IMG/VR virus record: IMGVR_UViG_3300037063_000022
Span: 1 to 30,931 of that record
Reading direction: 5' to 3' (one strand)
From: a virus
DNA length: 30,931 nt
The notes under the pieces are model-generated. The model was not told where the DNA came from. It worked only from the letters and a program-made list of their open reading frames with translations, and ran no database searches. How positions within the stretch are numbered: the first letter of the stretch is position 1; every line of letters starts with the position of its first letter. This document shows, piece after piece, positions 1-21,281 of the stretch. Made by a program: the position numbers and the translations under genes.

Positions 1-1221
1 GACATGAAGAAGCTGGCCGACCTCTCGATCAGCATCAACGCCTACGACCCGCTCAACACTGCCGGGAGCTTGGTCCTGAACCAAGACCCGAACGCGATGG
101 ACTTCCAGAAGGTCACGACGATCGCCGTCTCCGGCGTGCCTTACCACCACTCGCGCACGATCACGATCATGCACGAGCGACCGGTCTACATCGCCTACAC
201 GGGGTCGGCCTACGGGTTCGTCGGCCGGTCGGTCTTCCAGCGCGGCCTCTTCCCGCTGAAGTCGTTCGTCCAGTCGATGGTGACCGACGACCTCGTGACG
301 AAGAAGGCTGGCGTCTTCATCGCCACGCTCAAGGCCGCCGGCGCGATCATCAACGCCGCGATGAATGCCGCCGCCGGCATCAAACGGCTCTTCATCCGCG
401 AGTCGACGAACGGCAACGTGATCTCGATCGGGCCGGACGAGAAGATCGAAACGCTCAACATGCAGAACATCGACGGTGCCTATGGCATGGCCCGTCAAAA
501 CATCCTGGAGAACATCGCGGCGTCGGCCGACATGCCGGCGATCCTCCTCAAGCAGGAAACCTACGCGCAGGGCTTCGGGGAGGGGACGGAGGATGCAAAG
601 CTGGTCGCGGGCTTCGTCGACGGCATCCGGGAGTGGATGGGCCCGCTCTATGCGTTCTTCGATCGGATCGTGATGCACCGCGCGTGGAACCGCGACTTCT
701 ATGCGATCATCCAGAAGGACTTTCCGAAGTATCGAAAGGTCCCCTATGAGCAGGCGTTCTACGAGTGGCAGAACAGCTTCGCCGCGAACTGGCCGAGCCT
801 GCTGACGGAGCCGGAATCGGAGAAGGTCAAGACCGACGACGTCAAGCTGAAGGCGCTCATCGCCGTGATCGAAGTCCTGTCGCCCGAACTCGATCCGGAG
901 AACAAGGCCAAGGCGATCCAGTTTCTCCAGGACAACATCAACGAAAACAAGCGCATGTTCACGACGCCACTCGACCTCGACTTCGACGCGCTCGCGAAAT
1001 ACGTCCCGCCGCAGCCGGAAGCCGGGCTCGAAGAGCCGAAGCCGCAGAAGCCGTTTGCGGCGACCGATTCGCAGGACCGCAAGCGCCGATCAATCAAGGC
1101 TTATGACGATTCCGTCGCCGATCTCTTCGACTCGCTGGCGGCTAAGAACGTCGCCCGGGCACCGAAGCCGCACGGCGCAATGAACGGCCATATCAACGGG
1201 AAGGGGATCAGGACGTCATGA
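1..1221 (+). CDS. Phage portal protein, DUF1073-like (5' partial)
   Basis: The reading frame is open from the first base and has no convincing start (the ATG at base 4 has no ribosome site in view), so the N-terminus lies upstream. About 405 residues remain. A stretch with FIRESTNGNVISIGPDEKIE, then repeated aromatic and helical segments (QGFGEGTEDAKLVAGFVDGI, later PLYAFFDRIVMHRAW), matches what I know of DUF1073-type portals, which form the dodecameric DNA channel at the head vertex. The C-terminus (about 330-405) is Pro/Lys-rich and probably disordered, as is common for portals. It stands just before the MuF-like gene, the standard order terminase-portal-MuF. The stop overlaps the next gene (ATGA). 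The portal call rests on family resemblance and position. Confidence 0.75.
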   Translation, partial: DMKKLADLSISINAYDPLNTAGSLVLNQDPNAMDFQKVTTIAVSGVPYHHSRTITIMHERPVYIAYTGSAYGFVGRSVFQRGLFPLKSFVQSMVTDDLVTKKAGVFIATLKAAGAIINAAMNAAAGIKRLFIRESTNGNVISIGPDEKIETLNMQNIDGAYGMARQNILENIAASADMPAILLKQETYAQGFGEGTEDAKLVAGFVDGIREWMGPLYAFFDRIVMHRAWNRDFYAIIQKDFPKYRKVPYEQAFYEWQNSFAANWPSLLTEPESEKVKTDDVKLKALIAVIEVLSPELDPENKAKAIQFLQDNINENKRMFTTPLDLDFDALAKYVPPQPEAGLEEPKPQKPFAATDSQDRKRRSIKAYDDSVADLFDSLAAKNVARAPKPHGAMNGHINGKGIRTS

Positions 1222-1742: not shown

Positions 1743-3434
1743 ATGCCGACGTCCGGGGATGATTTCCAATCGGTCCTGACCGCCGCGGTCGAGGACATGA
1801 TCCAGAACGGTTTCGACTCCGTCGAGCGCGTCGCGCGCTGGACCCGGCTCATCCGAGAGGCTGCGGAGCGATCACTGATCCCGCCAGAATCACTCGACCA
1901 GCGGCTCCGGGACGCCCTCGCGGAAACCTATCGCAAGATGGTCGAGAAGGACGGCATCCTGAAATTCCACCCCGGCATCGAGCGGTTCACGCTCGAGCGG
2001 ATCAAGCCCGCGCTGCGCGCCGAACTCGACCGCCGCATCCTGGCGTCGGCGGATCTCATCAAACTCAACCGGGAGCAGGCTGTTGATAAAACAATCCAAC
2101 GGTTCCAAGGATGGGCGACGTCGATCCCGAAGGGCGGCACCGAAAACGCCGACAAGCGAGACACCAAGGACCGCGTCAGAAAGGCCCTCGCCCAACTCCC
2201 CTTCGAGGAACGACGGGTCCTCATCGACCAGGGGCATAAGCTTACTTCGACGATTTCGGAGATTTTGGCGTCGGACGGTGGGGCGATAGCGGGACGCTGG
2301 GTCTCACATTTCACTCAGCCGGGATACAATTATAGGGAAGATCATAAGGATCGAGACTTCCGCGAAACCGGGAACGTTTATCTAGTCCGTGACAGTTGGG
2401 CTCATCGAGCAGGCTATGTAAAGCCGCAACCCGGCGTTGGTTTTACCGACGACATCACAAAGCCCGCTGAGGAGCCGTTCTGCTTCCCCGGCGATTCACG
2501 GGTGCCATTCGCTGATGGTGTGGAAAAAGCGTATCGGCGTTTTTACCGGGGCGAACTGACCACGATCGTTACGGCCTCCGGCAAAACGCTCCGCGCGACA
2601 CCGAATCATCCAGTCCTTACGCCGAACGGCTGGACGGCGATCGGCTTCTTGAACGAAGGCGACGACGTGATCGATGTTGCCCATCAGGTCCTCGACTCGT
2701 CGAAAGAGGACGAGGATCACCGCGTACCCTTGATCGCGAAGATATTCAGCGCGCTTGCGGAATGCGGGACGTCTCAGGTGGTGCGTGGGCAGCTTGAGCA
2801 ATTCCACGGCGACGGCACCGACGCAGAGGTCGATGTTGTAGATGCCACAGGGATATTGCGCTTCCGGATCGAGCCCATGAAGGCGGAGAGCCGCTGTCAG
2901 GTCGTCTTCTCCGTGGCCCCGGCCGGTGCTGCGGCGGCTCGCACGTTTAACTTTTTCGGTGATGGTAGCCGTGCTGCCCGTACGGGCCTTGTGAGCGGCG
3001 GCCACGAGCCGGCGCCGTCCGTCTTCTCCCTCACGGGCCATCCTGATCCGGTTGGCGGCGGAGGCGTCGCGGAGGTCGACGTCCAGATACTTCGCAAGGG
3101 CGCCGCGCGAAACCTTCAGCCGTCGGGACAAGCTAAAGAGGCTTTCCCCTTCGAGGTACGAACGACGCGCATCGTCTCGATCGAAAGGCGGCAATGGACG
3201 GGGCATGTCTACAATCTCCAGACTGAAAAGGGCTGGTACGTCGCCGACGGGATCATAGTCCAGAATTGCCGTTGCTACTACCGCTGGCTCTACGCGCTGC
3301 GCGAACTGCCGCCTGAGATGCTGACGGCCAAGGGGAAGGCCGCGCTCGACCAGGCCAGGATCGCCGCGCGCACCGATTCGGACCTGGATGAGATCGAGAG
3401 CGCGCTGCGCGCCGACGCGGAGGACGCCGCATGA
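1743..3434 (+). CDS. MuF-like head morphogenesis protein with inserted intein
   Basis: The precursor is 563 residues. I take the ATG at 1743, two bases after the previous stop, over an upstream TTG at 1701. Residues 1-246 and 509-563 form the phage part (mature product about 301 residues after splicing). It resembles the SPP1 gp7 / Mu gpF minor head protein family, which is packaged in small numbers near the portal. The family ends in a conserved Cys-Arg-Cys-Tyr segment, and here CRCYYRW begins exactly at the downstream splice junction. Residues 247-508 are an intein (listed separately) that must be removed to rebuild the PF|CRCY motif. An opposite-strand ORF lies wholly inside the intein. 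The stop overlaps the next small ORF (ATGA). Confidence 0.8.
   Translation: MPTSGDDFQSVLTAAVEDMIQNGFDSVERVARWTRLIREAAERSLIPPESLDQRLRDALAETYRKMVEKDGILKFHPGIERFTLERIKPALRAELDRRILASADLIKLNREQAVDKTIQRFQGWATSIPKGGTENADKRDTKDRVRKALAQLPFEERRVLIDQGHKLTSTISEILASDGGAIAGRWVSHFTQPGYNYREDHKDRDFRETGNVYLVRDSWAHRAGYVKPQPGVGFTDDITKPAEEPFCFPGDSRVPFADGVEKAYRRFYRGELTTIVTASGKTLRATPNHPVLTPNGWTAIGFLNEGDDVIDVAHQVLDSSKEDEDHRVPLIAKIFSALAECGTSQVVRGQLEQFHGDGTDAEVDVVDATGILRFRIEPMKAESRCQVVFSVAPAGAAAARTFNFFGDGSRAARTGLVSGGHEPAPSVFSLTGHPDPVGGGGVAEVDVQILRKGAARNLQPSGQAKEAFPFEVRTTRIVSIERRQWTGHVYNLQTEKGWYVADGIIVQNCRCYYRWLYALRELPPEMLTAKGKAALDQARIAARTDSDLDEIESALRADAEDAA
2496..3206 (-). CDS. Predicted homing endonuclease encoded antisense within the intein (HTH + Vsr/PD-(D/E)xK-like)
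   Basis: 236 residues on the - strand, fully inside the intein. Residues about 11-58 read as a helix-turn-helix region (SLFSLSRRLKVSRGALAKYL), a likely DNA-binding domain. Residues about 100-205 read as a compact nuclease core: an acidic helix at E100, then GIYNIDLCVGAVAVELLK with D126 and E135, then RKRAEYLRDQGYAVILVLFR, the strand-helix-strand order of Vsr-like and EDxHD homing endonucleases. A GGAG sits 9 bases before the ATG. Its codons pair exactly, codon for codon, with the intein codons, and its TGA stop is the complement of the Ser6 codon (TCA) of the intein. Caution: antisense frames in this register stay open easily in GC-rich genes. The domain-like sequence, not the length, is the argument. 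Confidence 0.6.
   Translation of the reverse strand: MPRPLPPFDRDDARRSYLEGESLFSLSRRLKVSRGALAKYLDVDLRDASAANRIRMAREGEDGRRRLVAAAHKARTGSTATITEKVKRASRRSTGRGHGEDDLTAALRLHGLDPEAQYPCGIYNIDLCVGAVAVELLKLPTHHLRRPAFRKRAEYLRDQGYAVILVLFRRVEDLMGNIDHVVAFVQEADRRPAVRRKDWMIRCRAERFAGGRNDRGQFAPVKTPIRFFHTISEWHP
3216..3219 (-). promoter_or_regulatory. Shine-Dalgarno sequence for the antisense endonuclease ORF
   Basis: Read on the - strand this is GGAG, nine bases before the ATG whose first base is 3206. The spacing is right for a ribosome site. On the + strand the same bases encode part of the conserved C-terminal intein block, so this could be chance. Its presence supports independent translation of the antisense gene. 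Confidence 0.4.
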
Positions 3435-3840: not shown

Positions 3841-4269
3841 ATGCCGCTGACCGCGAAGGGTGAGAAGATTCTGGCGAACCTGACGAAGGAGTATGGCGCC
3901 GAGCACGGCAAGGAGGTCCTCTACGCCGGCAAGAACAAGGGGACGTTCAGCGGGATCGACGCGCAGGAGTTCGACGACGCCGACGTCGAGGGCGTCAACG
4001 CTTGGATGGATTCGTGGCGCAAGGACGCCGACGAGAAGAAGGACAGCCCGGGCTACAGTCGCGAAGCCGTGCAGAAGGCGATCGAGGCCTCACGCAAGCC
4101 GATCTCGCCGAAGGAGGCGAAGCTGATCCACGCGCTGCTGAAGGGGCGCGGTGACGACAACGATCCCGCACGCCTTCGCGCGATCCGCCTCGACGCAACA
4201 CTGAATCGCGTGGTAGGGCTTGCAGCGCGCGTCGACGCATATTGCGACCGGGCTGACAAAACCAAGTGA
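3841..4269 (+). CDS. Conserved phage protein with the MPLTAKGEKIL N-terminal motif
   Basis: 142 residues. The N-terminal 40 residues (MPLTAKGEKILANLTKEYG, then YAGKNKGTFSGID) match a small domain I have seen at the start of short phage proteins encoded beside DUF2213-type genes. The rest is charged and helical (Asp/Lys-rich, residues 45-100), with a second helical part to residue 142. It ends in a GTGA overlap with the Nudix/protease gene, so the two are probably coupled. Its role is unknown. The position just before the maturation protease and scaffold suggests a role in head assembly (inference). Confidence 0.65.
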   Translation: MPLTAKGEKILANLTKEYGAEHGKEVLYAGKNKGTFSGIDAQEFDDADVEGVNAWMDSWRKDADEKKDSPGYSREAVQKAIEASRKPISPKEAKLIHALLKGRGDDNDPARLRAIRLDATLNRVVGLAARVDAYCDRADKTK

Positions 4270-6221
4270 ACAAAGCCGCCGGAATCCTCTTCACCTCGAT
4301 CAACGGCAACGCGCTGTTTCTCAAGCGCGGGCCGGGCGCGCCGGATTTCCCCGGCTTTTGGGATTTCCCCGGCGGCGGCCAGGAAGGCGCCGAGACCGCC
4401 GAGCAGACCGCGCTCCGCGAGACGCGCGAAGAGATCGGCTTCATCCCCGAGGGCGATCGCAAGCTTCACACGAGAACGAAGGGCTCCTCCGCGTTGCAAG
4501 CCGCGGGTGGCGGTCTCGGGACGGTGTCGGCGCCTCCTGTCGCTGATGCCGTCCCGGCGACGCCTGGCGTCGGGCCGAATGGTGCCGCGATCCTGATGCC
4601 GAGCGTCGACTTCACGACGTTCCTTCAGAAGGTGACGAACGAGTTTGTCCCCGAGCTCGATGGTGAGCATGTCGGCTATTCCTGGTCGCCGATCGATTCG
4701 CCGCCGGAGCCGCTTCATCCGGGGTGCCGGGTGGCGCTCGACCGAATCAGCATGAACGAACTCGGGGTTGCTCGCGCAATCGCGGACGGTCGTCTGACGT
4801 CGCCGCAACGCTATGGCACGCCGGCCGCTGGTGTCACGCTGTTCGCGATCAGGATCACCGGCACGGACGTCGCTTACCGTCGGAAGATCGACGAGTTCGT
4901 CCACAGAAACCCGGACAATTATCTCAACCCGGAGTTCCTGGCGCGGTGCAACGGCCTCCCCGTGATCTACATGCACCCCAAAACATCGCTGCTAAATTCG
5001 GAAGAGTTCAGCGAGAGAGTTGTGGGAAGCATTTTTTTGCCGTATATCGCTGGGGACGAAGTCTGGGGTGTCGCCAAGATTTACGACGACGAAGTCGCCC
5101 AGGAGATGGAGGACGAAGAACTCTCGACCTCACCGGCGGTCTACTTCCACGACATGACGGTCAACACGAAATTGACCACGGAAGACGGGCGCAAGGTGTT
5201 TATCGAGGGAGATCCCAGCCTCCTCGACCATGTCGCGGTGTGCAAGCGCGGGGTCTGGGACAAGCTAGGCGTACCGAGTGGCATACGATCCGAATCACGA
5301 GAGGACTCAGCGATGACCGAAGCCGAGCAAGCCGCAGCCGACAAGGCCAAAAAGGACGCCGAGGAAGCCGAGGCCAAGAAGAAGGCCGACGCGGAAGCTG
5401 AGGCGAAGACAAAAGCCGACGCTGAGGCGAAAGCTAAGGCCGACGCGGAGGGCGGTGTGCAGCTCGACAAGGTCCTCTCCAAGATGGACGCGTTCTGCGA
5501 CTCGATGTCGAAGCGCATGGATGCCGTCGAGGCCTCCGAAAAAGAACGCAAGGACGCCGAGGAAAAGCGCAAAGCCGATGCCGAGGAAGAGGCCCGCAAG
5601 AAGGGCGACCCCGAGCAGATCAAGGCCGACAAGGCGAAGAAAGACGCCGAAGAGGCCGCTGAGGCGAAGAAGAAAGCCGACGCCGAAGAGGCCGAAAAGG
5701 CCAAGGCGAAAGCCGACTCCGACGAGGTCCGGAAGAAGGTCGACGCGCTTGCGGCTCAACTGCCGAAGCGGATGGACGACAAGGACTACGCCGCAGTGAT
5801 CGACGCGCAGTTCCGCGCCGACGACGTCTTCCAGGACTTCGGCCTCCGCGCTCCTCGTCCGCTCGAGGGCGAAACGAAGCCGCTTTATGATCGCCGCATC
5901 GCGCGGATGCTCAAGGATCACAGCCCGTTGCTCAAGAACGTCGACCTCGCGGCCTTCGCCGACGACGCCGCGTTCGAGCCGATCCTCGCGCAAATCTTCA
6001 AGGACGCGAAGGTCGCGGCGATGAACCCGACGGCGCTTCCCGATGGCGGCCTGCGCATGATCACCAAGAAGTCGGGCGGCCACGAGATCAATACGTTTGT
6101 CGGCAAGCCCGACGCCTGGATGGGCCAGTTCGCCGGTCCGGTGCGCCAGAACGTCACCGGATTTAAGCAAGAGAACCGGGTCGGGATCAACCACACACTG
6201 ATCACGCCTCGGTCGAACTGA
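4266..6221 (+). CDS. Nudix / DUF2213 protease-like / coiled-coil scaffold fusion
   Basis: 651 residues from a GTG that overlaps the previous stop. Residues 1-155 are a Nudix hydrolase domain with a complete Nudix box at residues 37-59 (G-x5-E-x7-REtrEEiGF), so the metal-binding glutamates are intact. Residues about 190-345 resemble DUF2213, a family found beside phage capsid genes and thought to contain the prohead protease. A His at 237 (YMHP) and Ser at 287/289 (STSPAV) are candidate catalytic residues (inference). Residues 350-510 are a long Lys/Ala/Glu coiled coil typical of scaffolding proteins. Residues 510-651 form a folded C-terminus. An internal ATG with a good ribosome site at 5313 could produce the scaffold alone. 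A Nudix enzyme fused to a head maturation protein is unusual, and its substrate is unknown. Confidence 0.75.
   Translation: MNKAAGILFTSINGNALFLKRGPGAPDFPGFWDFPGGGQEGAETAEQTALRETREEIGFIPEGDRKLHTRTKGSSALQAAGGGLGTVSAPPVADAVPATPGVGPNGAAILMPSVDFTTFLQKVTNEFVPELDGEHVGYSWSPIDSPPEPLHPGCRVALDRISMNELGVARAIADGRLTSPQRYGTPAAGVTLFAIRITGTDVAYRRKIDEFVHRNPDNYLNPEFLARCNGLPVIYMHPKTSLLNSEEFSERVVGSIFLPYIAGDEVWGVAKIYDDEVAQEMEDEELSTSPAVYFHDMTVNTKLTTEDGRKVFIEGDPSLLDHVAVCKRGVWDKLGVPSGIRSESREDSAMTEAEQAAADKAKKDAEEAEAKKKADAEAEAKTKADAEAKAKADAEGGVQLDKVLSKMDAFCDSMSKRMDAVEASEKERKDAEEKRKADAEEEARKKGDPEQIKADKAKKDAEEAAEAKKKADAEEAEKAKAKADSDEVRKKVDALAAQLPKRMDDKDYAAVIDAQFRADDVFQDFGLRAPRPLEGETKPLYDRRIARMLKDHSPLLKNVDLAAFADDAAFEPILAQIFKDAKVAAMNPTALPDGGLRMITKKSGGHEINTFVGKPDAWMGQFAGPVRQNVTGFKQENRVGINHTLITPRSN
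5313..6221 (+). CDS. Possible nested scaffold protein from an internal start
   Basis: In-frame ATG at residue 350 of the fusion, exactly where the coiled coil begins (MTEAEQAAADKAKK). It is preceded by GAGG with an 8-base gap (5301-5304). The product would be 302 residues, coiled coil plus C-terminal domain. The arrangement recalls lambda C/Nu3, where the scaffold is made from an internal start in the protease gene. Support is the placement and the ribosome site only; proteolytic separation is an alternative. Confidence 0.4.
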   Translation: MTEAEQAAADKAKKDAEEAEAKKKADAEAEAKTKADAEAKAKADAEGGVQLDKVLSKMDAFCDSMSKRMDAVEASEKERKDAEEKRKADAEEEARKKGDPEQIKADKAKKDAEEAAEAKKKADAEEAEKAKAKADSDEVRKKVDALAAQLPKRMDDKDYAAVIDAQFRADDVFQDFGLRAPRPLEGETKPLYDRRIARMLKDHSPLLKNVDLAAFADDAAFEPILAQIFKDAKVAAMNPTALPDGGLRMITKKSGGHEINTFVGKPDAWMGQFAGPVRQNVTGFKQENRVGINHTLITPRSN

Positions 6222-20777: not shown

Positions 20778-21281
20778 ATGGCCTATAATAGCGCCATGAG
20801 AATCACCCAAAAACGCCTTCATCAACTCTTCGATTACGACGCTGATCGCGGCGTTCTTTTATATAAAACGGCGCGTGGAAGAATGCGTGTTGGCGATGTT
20901 GCCGGATGGACCGAGCACAAAGGTTATATTCGCGTCATTGCTGACGGAATCACTTATTCGGTACACCGTCTCATTTGGTTTTACGTCAAAGGGCGATGGC
21001 CGATAAATCAACTAGATCACCGCGATCTAACCAAATCGAACAATCGCATCGGAAATCTACGGGAAGCAACGAACAGTCAGAATAAGTGCAATCAATATGT
21101 TCGAAAAGATAGTCAAACTAGAATCCGCGGCGTAACTGAAGACAAAAGGACCGGGCGCTTTCGCGCTTATATCTCTATAGATCAGGAACGGCGTTGGCTC
21201 GGGTTCTTTGCGACAAAAATCGAAGCGCAATCTGCGCGCGTTGCCGCCCTTCATCTTCATGGCGAATTTGCTCGGGAGTAA
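20778..21281 (+). CDS. HNH homing endonuclease with AP2-like domain
   Basis: 167 residues, ATG after GGAGG. Residues about 30-105 are an HNH nuclease (H63, then QLDHRDLTKSNNRIGNLREA with D80/H81, N89 and N93), the His-Asn-His metal site of freestanding phage homing endonucleases. Residues about 115-165 (GVTEDKRTGRFRAYISIDQE, then RRWLGFFATKIEAQSARVAA) look like an AP2 DNA-binding domain. The gene is clearly more AT-rich than its neighbours (about 46% GC by eye), a sign of recent transfer. It sits between the spike gene and a gp25-like baseplate gene and may have altered the start of the latter. Confidence 0.85.
   Translation: MAYNSAMRITQKRLHQLFDYDADRGVLLYKTARGRMRVGDVAGWTEHKGYIRVIADGITYSVHRLIWFYVKGRWPINQLDHRDLTKSNNRIGNLREATNSQNKCNQYVRKDSQTRIRGVTEDKRTGRFRAYISIDQERRWLGFFATKIEAQSARVAALHLHGEFARE

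Follow-up and report, generated by a model that had tools for sequence, protein, structure and literature searches.

The homing endonucleases of inteins are taken as domains of the intein itself. The intein described here resembles the canonical LAGLIDADG and HNH inteins in that it is an apparently mobile element that brings a nuclease of its own and sits at a conserved Cys in an essential gene. In contrast to these inteins, its nuclease is a separate protein encoded on the opposite strand and is not part of the intein polypeptide. The nearest described idea is that of the ShiLan-type elements, in which an HNH endonuclease is hidden in a phage methylase gene, on the same strand and in another frame, with no intein (Arsenault et al. 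2025, PMC11855218). Both cases place an out-of-frame endonuclease over an uninterrupted host-gene frame and would spread as selfish elements, whereas ours uses the opposite strand, a Vsr-like fold and a true intein. The I-Bth0305I, or EDxHD (Vsr-like), family was, going by the titles of the papers, found with split inteins in 'fractured genes' (Dassa et al. 2009; Taylor et al. 2011, cited in PMC10448857). Our protein shares with it the nuclease fold, the combination of a DNA-binding region with a nuclease and the location in phage genes. Unlike that family, it is encoded antisense and wholly inside one continuous intein, and its acidic motif, E-(25)-D-(8)-E, comes with no matched His. A capsid-morphogenesis intein has also been reported in the Guernseyvirinae phage Snoke (PMC6776784), whose locus is one of our relatives (L163) and shares intein family and host gene with ours; no endonuclease or antisense gene is mentioned in the available part of that report. 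An intein of the same gene family has likewise been reported in Salmonella phages, with no antisense enzyme mentioned in the part of the source at hand. In the literature that we searched, no antisense endonuclease inside an intein is described; a 2025 preprint on non-canonical phage inteins (Gosselin et al., bioRxiv 2025.01.02.630785) may overlap.

The window, by which we mean the whole stretch of DNA analysed, is a viral record of 30,931 bases that contains portal, capsid and tail-sheath genes together with a MuF-type head morphogenesis gene (Table 1). The product of the latter matches the phrog_15127 head protein (E 4e-49) and phrog_324 (E 1.6e-15). A Pfam search of this gene gave no Phage_Mu_F match, whereas the N-exteins of most relatives do match Phage_Mu_F, and the N-exteins tested from divergent loci all fall in head-gene families, mostly of the MuF type. 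It is highly likely that the gene carries a mobile intein and that the antisense strand of the uninterrupted intein frame encodes its homing endonuclease. Our computations across relatives revealed conservation of both frames, purifying selection on the antisense one, a nuclease fold, a fixed geometry, exact empty insertion sites and a sporadic distribution, and that the nuclease is inherited along with the intein. We also observed a NUDIX domain fused to a DUF2213 protein (4266-6221, + strand), located between the genes for MuF and the major capsid protein.

Table 1. Positions in the window of the intein-bearing head gene, the nested antisense gene and their elements.
Feature	Position	Strand	Remarks
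Portal gene	4-1221		phrog_146
MuF-type head morphogenesis gene with intein	1743..3434	+	N-extein 1743-2480, C-extein 3267-3434
Intein, 262 aa	2481..3266	+	Cys1, block B TPNHP, block F GHVYNL, Asn262, then Cys+1
Intein sense centre, about residues 129-219	2865..3137	+	predicted disordered, pLDDT about 30; opposite HTH and linker helix
Antisense gene, 236-aa HTH + Vsr/EDxHD-like endonuclease (predicted)	2496..3206	-	wholly nested in the intein, codon-to-codon register
Helix-turn-helix (HTH), antisense residues 10-41	3084..3179	-	model helices H10-18, H23-30, H34-41
Nuclease core, about residues 99-171	2693..2912	-	contains E100, Y123, D126, E135 and R152
Glu135 codon (GAA), catalytic-type	2802..2804	-	+ strand reads Phe108 of FHGD
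Asp126 codon, catalytic-type	2829..2831	-	invariant
Glu100 codon, catalytic-type	2907..2909	-	invariant
Shine-Dalgarno-like GGAG	3216..3219	-	9 nt before the antisense ATG; encoded by intein block F Leu-Gln codons
Possible -10 element TATGAT	3252..3257	-	block G Ile-Ile codons; weak here, p=0.26

The intein splits the MuF-type gene at codon 247 and, judging from its motifs, would splice itself out of the MuF precursor. Consistent with the first-pass annotation, which had recognised an intein at this position, all the key splicing residues were found, and the intein matches the Pfam family Intein_splicing (PF14890) at E 8e-9, slightly above the curated cut-off. C1, T40, H43 and N262 are invariant among 22 relatives; the residue before the terminal Asn is Gln in the window and His or Ser in relatives. 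In the structure model, the splicing blocks have pLDDT values >90 and residues 80-127 are of moderate confidence. The sense centre had been regarded as a linker constrained by the antisense frame, and this view held in part. Residues 128-219 are indeed modelled as disordered, and sense constraint is weak over residues 148-197 (w_sense 0.86); however, the FHGD motif (2802-2813, + strand), which faces the antisense catalytic strand, is invariant down to the codon level, so the centre is only partly free. Among the aligned relatives, Glu135 is encoded by GAA in 27/27 and Ala133 by GCC in 26/27, and the sense His is present in 27/27. Because the antisense protein would tolerate other codons there, the sense side is constrained at FHGD too. 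The sense centre may have originated as a protein segment through overprinting.

The nested ORF had been read as an HTH followed by a Vsr- or PD-(D/E)xK-like nuclease, a reading supported by the fold and by the profiles of relatives. The AlphaFold2 model (mean pLDDT 89) has an HTH made of three helices, one long helix and a core with alpha-beta-beta-beta-alpha-beta topology. Searched against the PDB with Foldseek, it ranked the catalytic domain of the homing endonuclease I-Bth0305I first (prob 1.00, TMt 0.68), with a modest E value of 0.0095, and VIA-align superposed it on Vsr with Z 11.2 (112 residues, 2.6 A) and on I-Bth0305I with Z 9.8 (94 residues, 3.2 A). Pfam analysis of 30 members detected HTH_7 in 19 (best E 1.3e-12) and REase_MTES_1575 in seven (best 6e-4), and longer relatives carry two HTH copies. 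By sequence, the window protein alone had no Pfam match at E<=0.01 and only chance matches to transthyretin in the PDB; a profile of the 30 members matched HTH proteins, its nuclease part reached only E 0.39, and it gave no sequence-profile match to I-Bth0305I. E100, Y123, D126 and E135 are invariant in the 30 aligned proteins and R152 is nearly so, which includes both residues singled out at first, D126 and E135. In the acidic motif, the E and D are conserved and the third acidic residue is E135, with no invariant His among the 30 aligned members. Because the His of EDxHD was not identified, we name the protein Vsr/I-Bth0305I-like and do not class it as a proven EDxHD member.

The limits of the antisense ORF (15 bases inside the intein start and 60 bases short of its end), its 236 codons, their exact codon-to-codon pairing with the sense frame and the GGAG 9 nt before the ATG all agree with the first-pass annotation. 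Its caution that antisense frames in this register often stay open was also right. In the window alone the nested ORF is not significant (about three TTA/CTA/TCA sense codons expected over its length, 0 seen, log10P -1.4), and unselected antisense frames of the same genome reach 385 codons over the tape-measure gene. These numbers would suit a shadow ORF, a frame left open only through GC content, register and conservation of the sense intein. We give this explanation practically no credence and rejected it on the basis of open frames at AT-rich loci, antisense-biased substitutions and an intein-less relative in Acinetobacter phages. Both frames are kept at 43 loci spanning 36-68% GC, with 0 TTA/CTA/TCA sense codons within the antisense ORF. 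The AT-rich phages would be expected to hold 15-26 such stop-making codons (maximum 26.5), and single-locus log10P values fall to -15.4. Since the spans were chosen as open and the loci are related, the sum over loci is not readable as a probability, and combined p-values are overstated by this kinship; single loci suffice for significance. In every nested case that we read, the sense ORF opposite the antisense match had intein motifs, the register was the same, and the other two sense frames were closed. Read on the other strand, the block F His codon is the antisense ATG, which usually lies 20 codons from the last intein Asn. By contrast, the true shadow of the window, the 385-aa ORF over the tape-measure gene, had no phage match and no Pfam match. 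Five other large antisense ORFs gave no Pfam match except one at E 0.04. As a second same-register control, the tape-measure gene yielded an identical copy as its only relative, and the controls used were the exteins and the absence of relatives for the 385-aa ORF. Taken together, the comparison among relatives settles that the ORF is a real antisense gene.

Selection on the two strands can be separated by codon position, with sense codon position 1 being the antisense wobble position in this register. Most changes in the endonuclease core sit at antisense wobble sites, and antisense amino-acid identity exceeded sense identity in 15/15 pairs, both of which speak against a shadow ORF. The N-extein of the same gene shows the opposite substitution pattern. 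The antisense dN/dS-like ratio (dNN/dNS, w_anti), obtained from pairwise counts with Jukes-Cantor correction and not from a joint likelihood, was 0.08-0.43 in the endonuclease core, as compared with 0.49-1.14 in the exteins, which share the register without such a signal. This indicates purifying selection on the antisense frame beyond the sense constraint. By region, with the nine closer pairs pooled, the antisense ratio was 0.22 in the HTH, 0.11 in the linker helix and 0.22 and 0.25 in the two nuclease halves. Opposite intein blocks A and B, it rose to 0.49-0.61 and the sense ratio went down to about 0.3. Because antisense constraint dominates from the HTH to the nuclease and sense constraint in blocks A and B, both proteins are selected, each where it matters. 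Of the two, the antisense one is better conserved across its core region.

A tblastn search with the antisense protein matched 93 phage records, and pattern scans of IMG/VR added further sets of relatives; an alignment that took in the full set of 19 divergent members proved too heterogeneous for such scans. Antisense relatives occur in many phages, each opposite an annotated MuF or head gene, and in a few records the ORF is annotated as a hypothetical protein. At least 43 loci have the nested arrangement, and the hosts of the phages concerned are Proteobacteria, Actinobacteria, Helicobacter and Chloroflexota. The prophage and host range was drawn from phage, plasmid and IMG/VR collections, and a scan of genome contigs with the close-relative alignment gave no match. 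A phage-like plasmid from Candidatus Promineifilum breve, which belongs to the Chloroflexota, has the arrangement as well (L167, 2444-3337).

The Acinetobacter phages BUCT629, IME285 and P1068 provide a case in which the gene is kept without any sense frame. Here a 297-aa relative is annotated as a plain gene beside an uninterrupted MuF gene, and its reverse strand is full of stops. When used as a query against phages, this 297-aa protein matched MuF inteins on their antisense strands, with E 9e-34 in a Vibrio phage and E 1e-27 in Aaphi23. Because no sense frame lies opposite the gene, this similarity is not the mirror image of a conserved sense protein, which again argues against a shadow ORF. 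In one Acinetobacter phage relative (L031, 3794-4687), the gene is free-standing and convergent with an intein-free MuF gene, and a resemblance to intein block B persists on its reverse strand (ASPQFTIL*SNG versus ATPNHPILTSNG). This trace suggests that the free-standing gene may descend from a nested ancestor.

The signals from which the antisense gene would be expressed are themselves embedded in splicing-motif codons. Most relatives have GGAG or GAGG 8-9 nt upstream of the antisense ATG, in the block F Leu codons; the Shine-Dalgarno excess over a synonymous null is slight (Fisher p 0.004). In the window, a consensus promoter scan found none on this strand. In many relatives, a sigma70-like promoter precedes the ATG by about 28 or 45 nt and occupies block G and splice-junction codons, and many have a strong -10 consensus TATAAT, some with TTGACA; L068 and L074, for example, have TTGACA-N18-TATAAT. 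Scored against synonymous recoding of the sense protein, the promoter reached p<0.05 in 46% of 41 loci versus 0.8% of 123 control windows. If the signals of the homing endonuclease (HEN) are written in the splicing codons of blocks F and G, neither function could be changed there without touching the other.

Several observations bear on mobility. Of 62 related MuF genes, 58 are uninterrupted at the corresponding Cys. Among Guernseyvirinae-type phages, 70/500 matching records cover most of the intein gene, and most other listed records match both exteins only, about 55% of the query. In the two records checked, Jerseyvirus ST1 and PIZ SAE-01E2, exactly the 816-bp intein is missing. Between LP31 and LSPA1, the intein DNA is 0.96 alike and the N-extein 0.70. 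HEN distances follow intein distances (Mantel 0.63, partial 0.59) more closely than extein distances (0.39), and one locus (L056) has a HEN 37-50% identical to those of MuF genes whose exteins match its own at only 10-15%. The exact empty sites and sporadic distribution fit homing. None of the three results that would have counted against the first-pass reading was obtained: the fold resembles that of a homing endonuclease, related inteins retain the antisense ORF, and purifying selection on the antisense frame goes further than the sense frame imposes. The first-pass proposal that the mobility enzyme lies on the opposite strand gains support from the fold, the profiles, selection, wide conservation and the empty sites, and homing itself, with cleavage of the empty site by the antisense nuclease, would be its probable mode of action. 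In the head gene of Escherichia phage Ec1-ASingh (L026), and apparently also in that of Mycobacterium phage Sejanus (L021), an intein of the same kind occupies a second Cys, which lies upstream.

We envisage the following cycle. Late sense transcription would give the MuF precursor, from which the intein would remove itself. From the opposite strand, an independent gene with an ATG and a ribosome site of its own, driven in many relatives by the presumed sigma70-like promoter, would give an HTH plus Vsr/I-Bth0305I-like nuclease. The nuclease would cut MuF alleles without the intein; the break would then be repaired with the intein-bearing copy as template, which would bring in intein and nuclease at once. 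It might instead, or in addition, be a weapon of phage-phage competition that cuts the MuF genes of competitors, with intein spread as a by-product: as expected of phage homing endonucleases, site-specific cutting in a head gene would also disable any co-infecting competitor that lacks the intein. We consider this unlikely as the explanation, since the precise presence and absence of the intein and the co-inheritance of HEN and intein across unrelated MuF backgrounds fit homing directly, although the two roles are not mutually exclusive. Still less likely is that the nuclease is no longer a homing enzyme and has been kept for another purpose, as a maturase-like or regulatory DNA-binding partner. 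Such long conservation without loss is unusual for homing nucleases, and the two HTH copies of many members might point the same way; however, it is the nuclease residues that are invariant, not the HTH alone, and the sporadic distribution with exact empty sites also speaks against it. Moreover, one copy (L084) has an internal antisense stop inside an otherwise intact intein, the decay stage expected from a homing cycle.

Beyond the window, it seems likely that these loci represent mobile inteins of a two-strand ('ambigrammatic') class that is widespread and has specialised in the MuF genes of phages, with the promoter, ribosome site and start codon of the antisense HEN lying in the codons of blocks F and G. 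The mobility enzyme of such an intein would be separate, come from the opposite strand of the same DNA and be conserved across phages of several bacterial phyla. The arrangement offers a natural case of long-lived full antisense coding, with about 230-300 codons selected on both strands, and shows how a selfish gene can lie concealed inside another at no cost in DNA length. Inteins filed as lacking an endonuclease deserve a check of the opposite strand.

Other endonuclease genes were encountered along the way. In a Rhizobium phage (L019), two genes annotated as homing endonucleases (597-1235 and 2399-2941) lie between tRNA genes, and the second weakly matches the nuclease domain (E 4e-3). The window itself also carries a canonical free-standing HNH endonuclease gene (20778-21281, + strand; phrog_99, E 3.5e-55), a second possible homing enzyme of the same genome.
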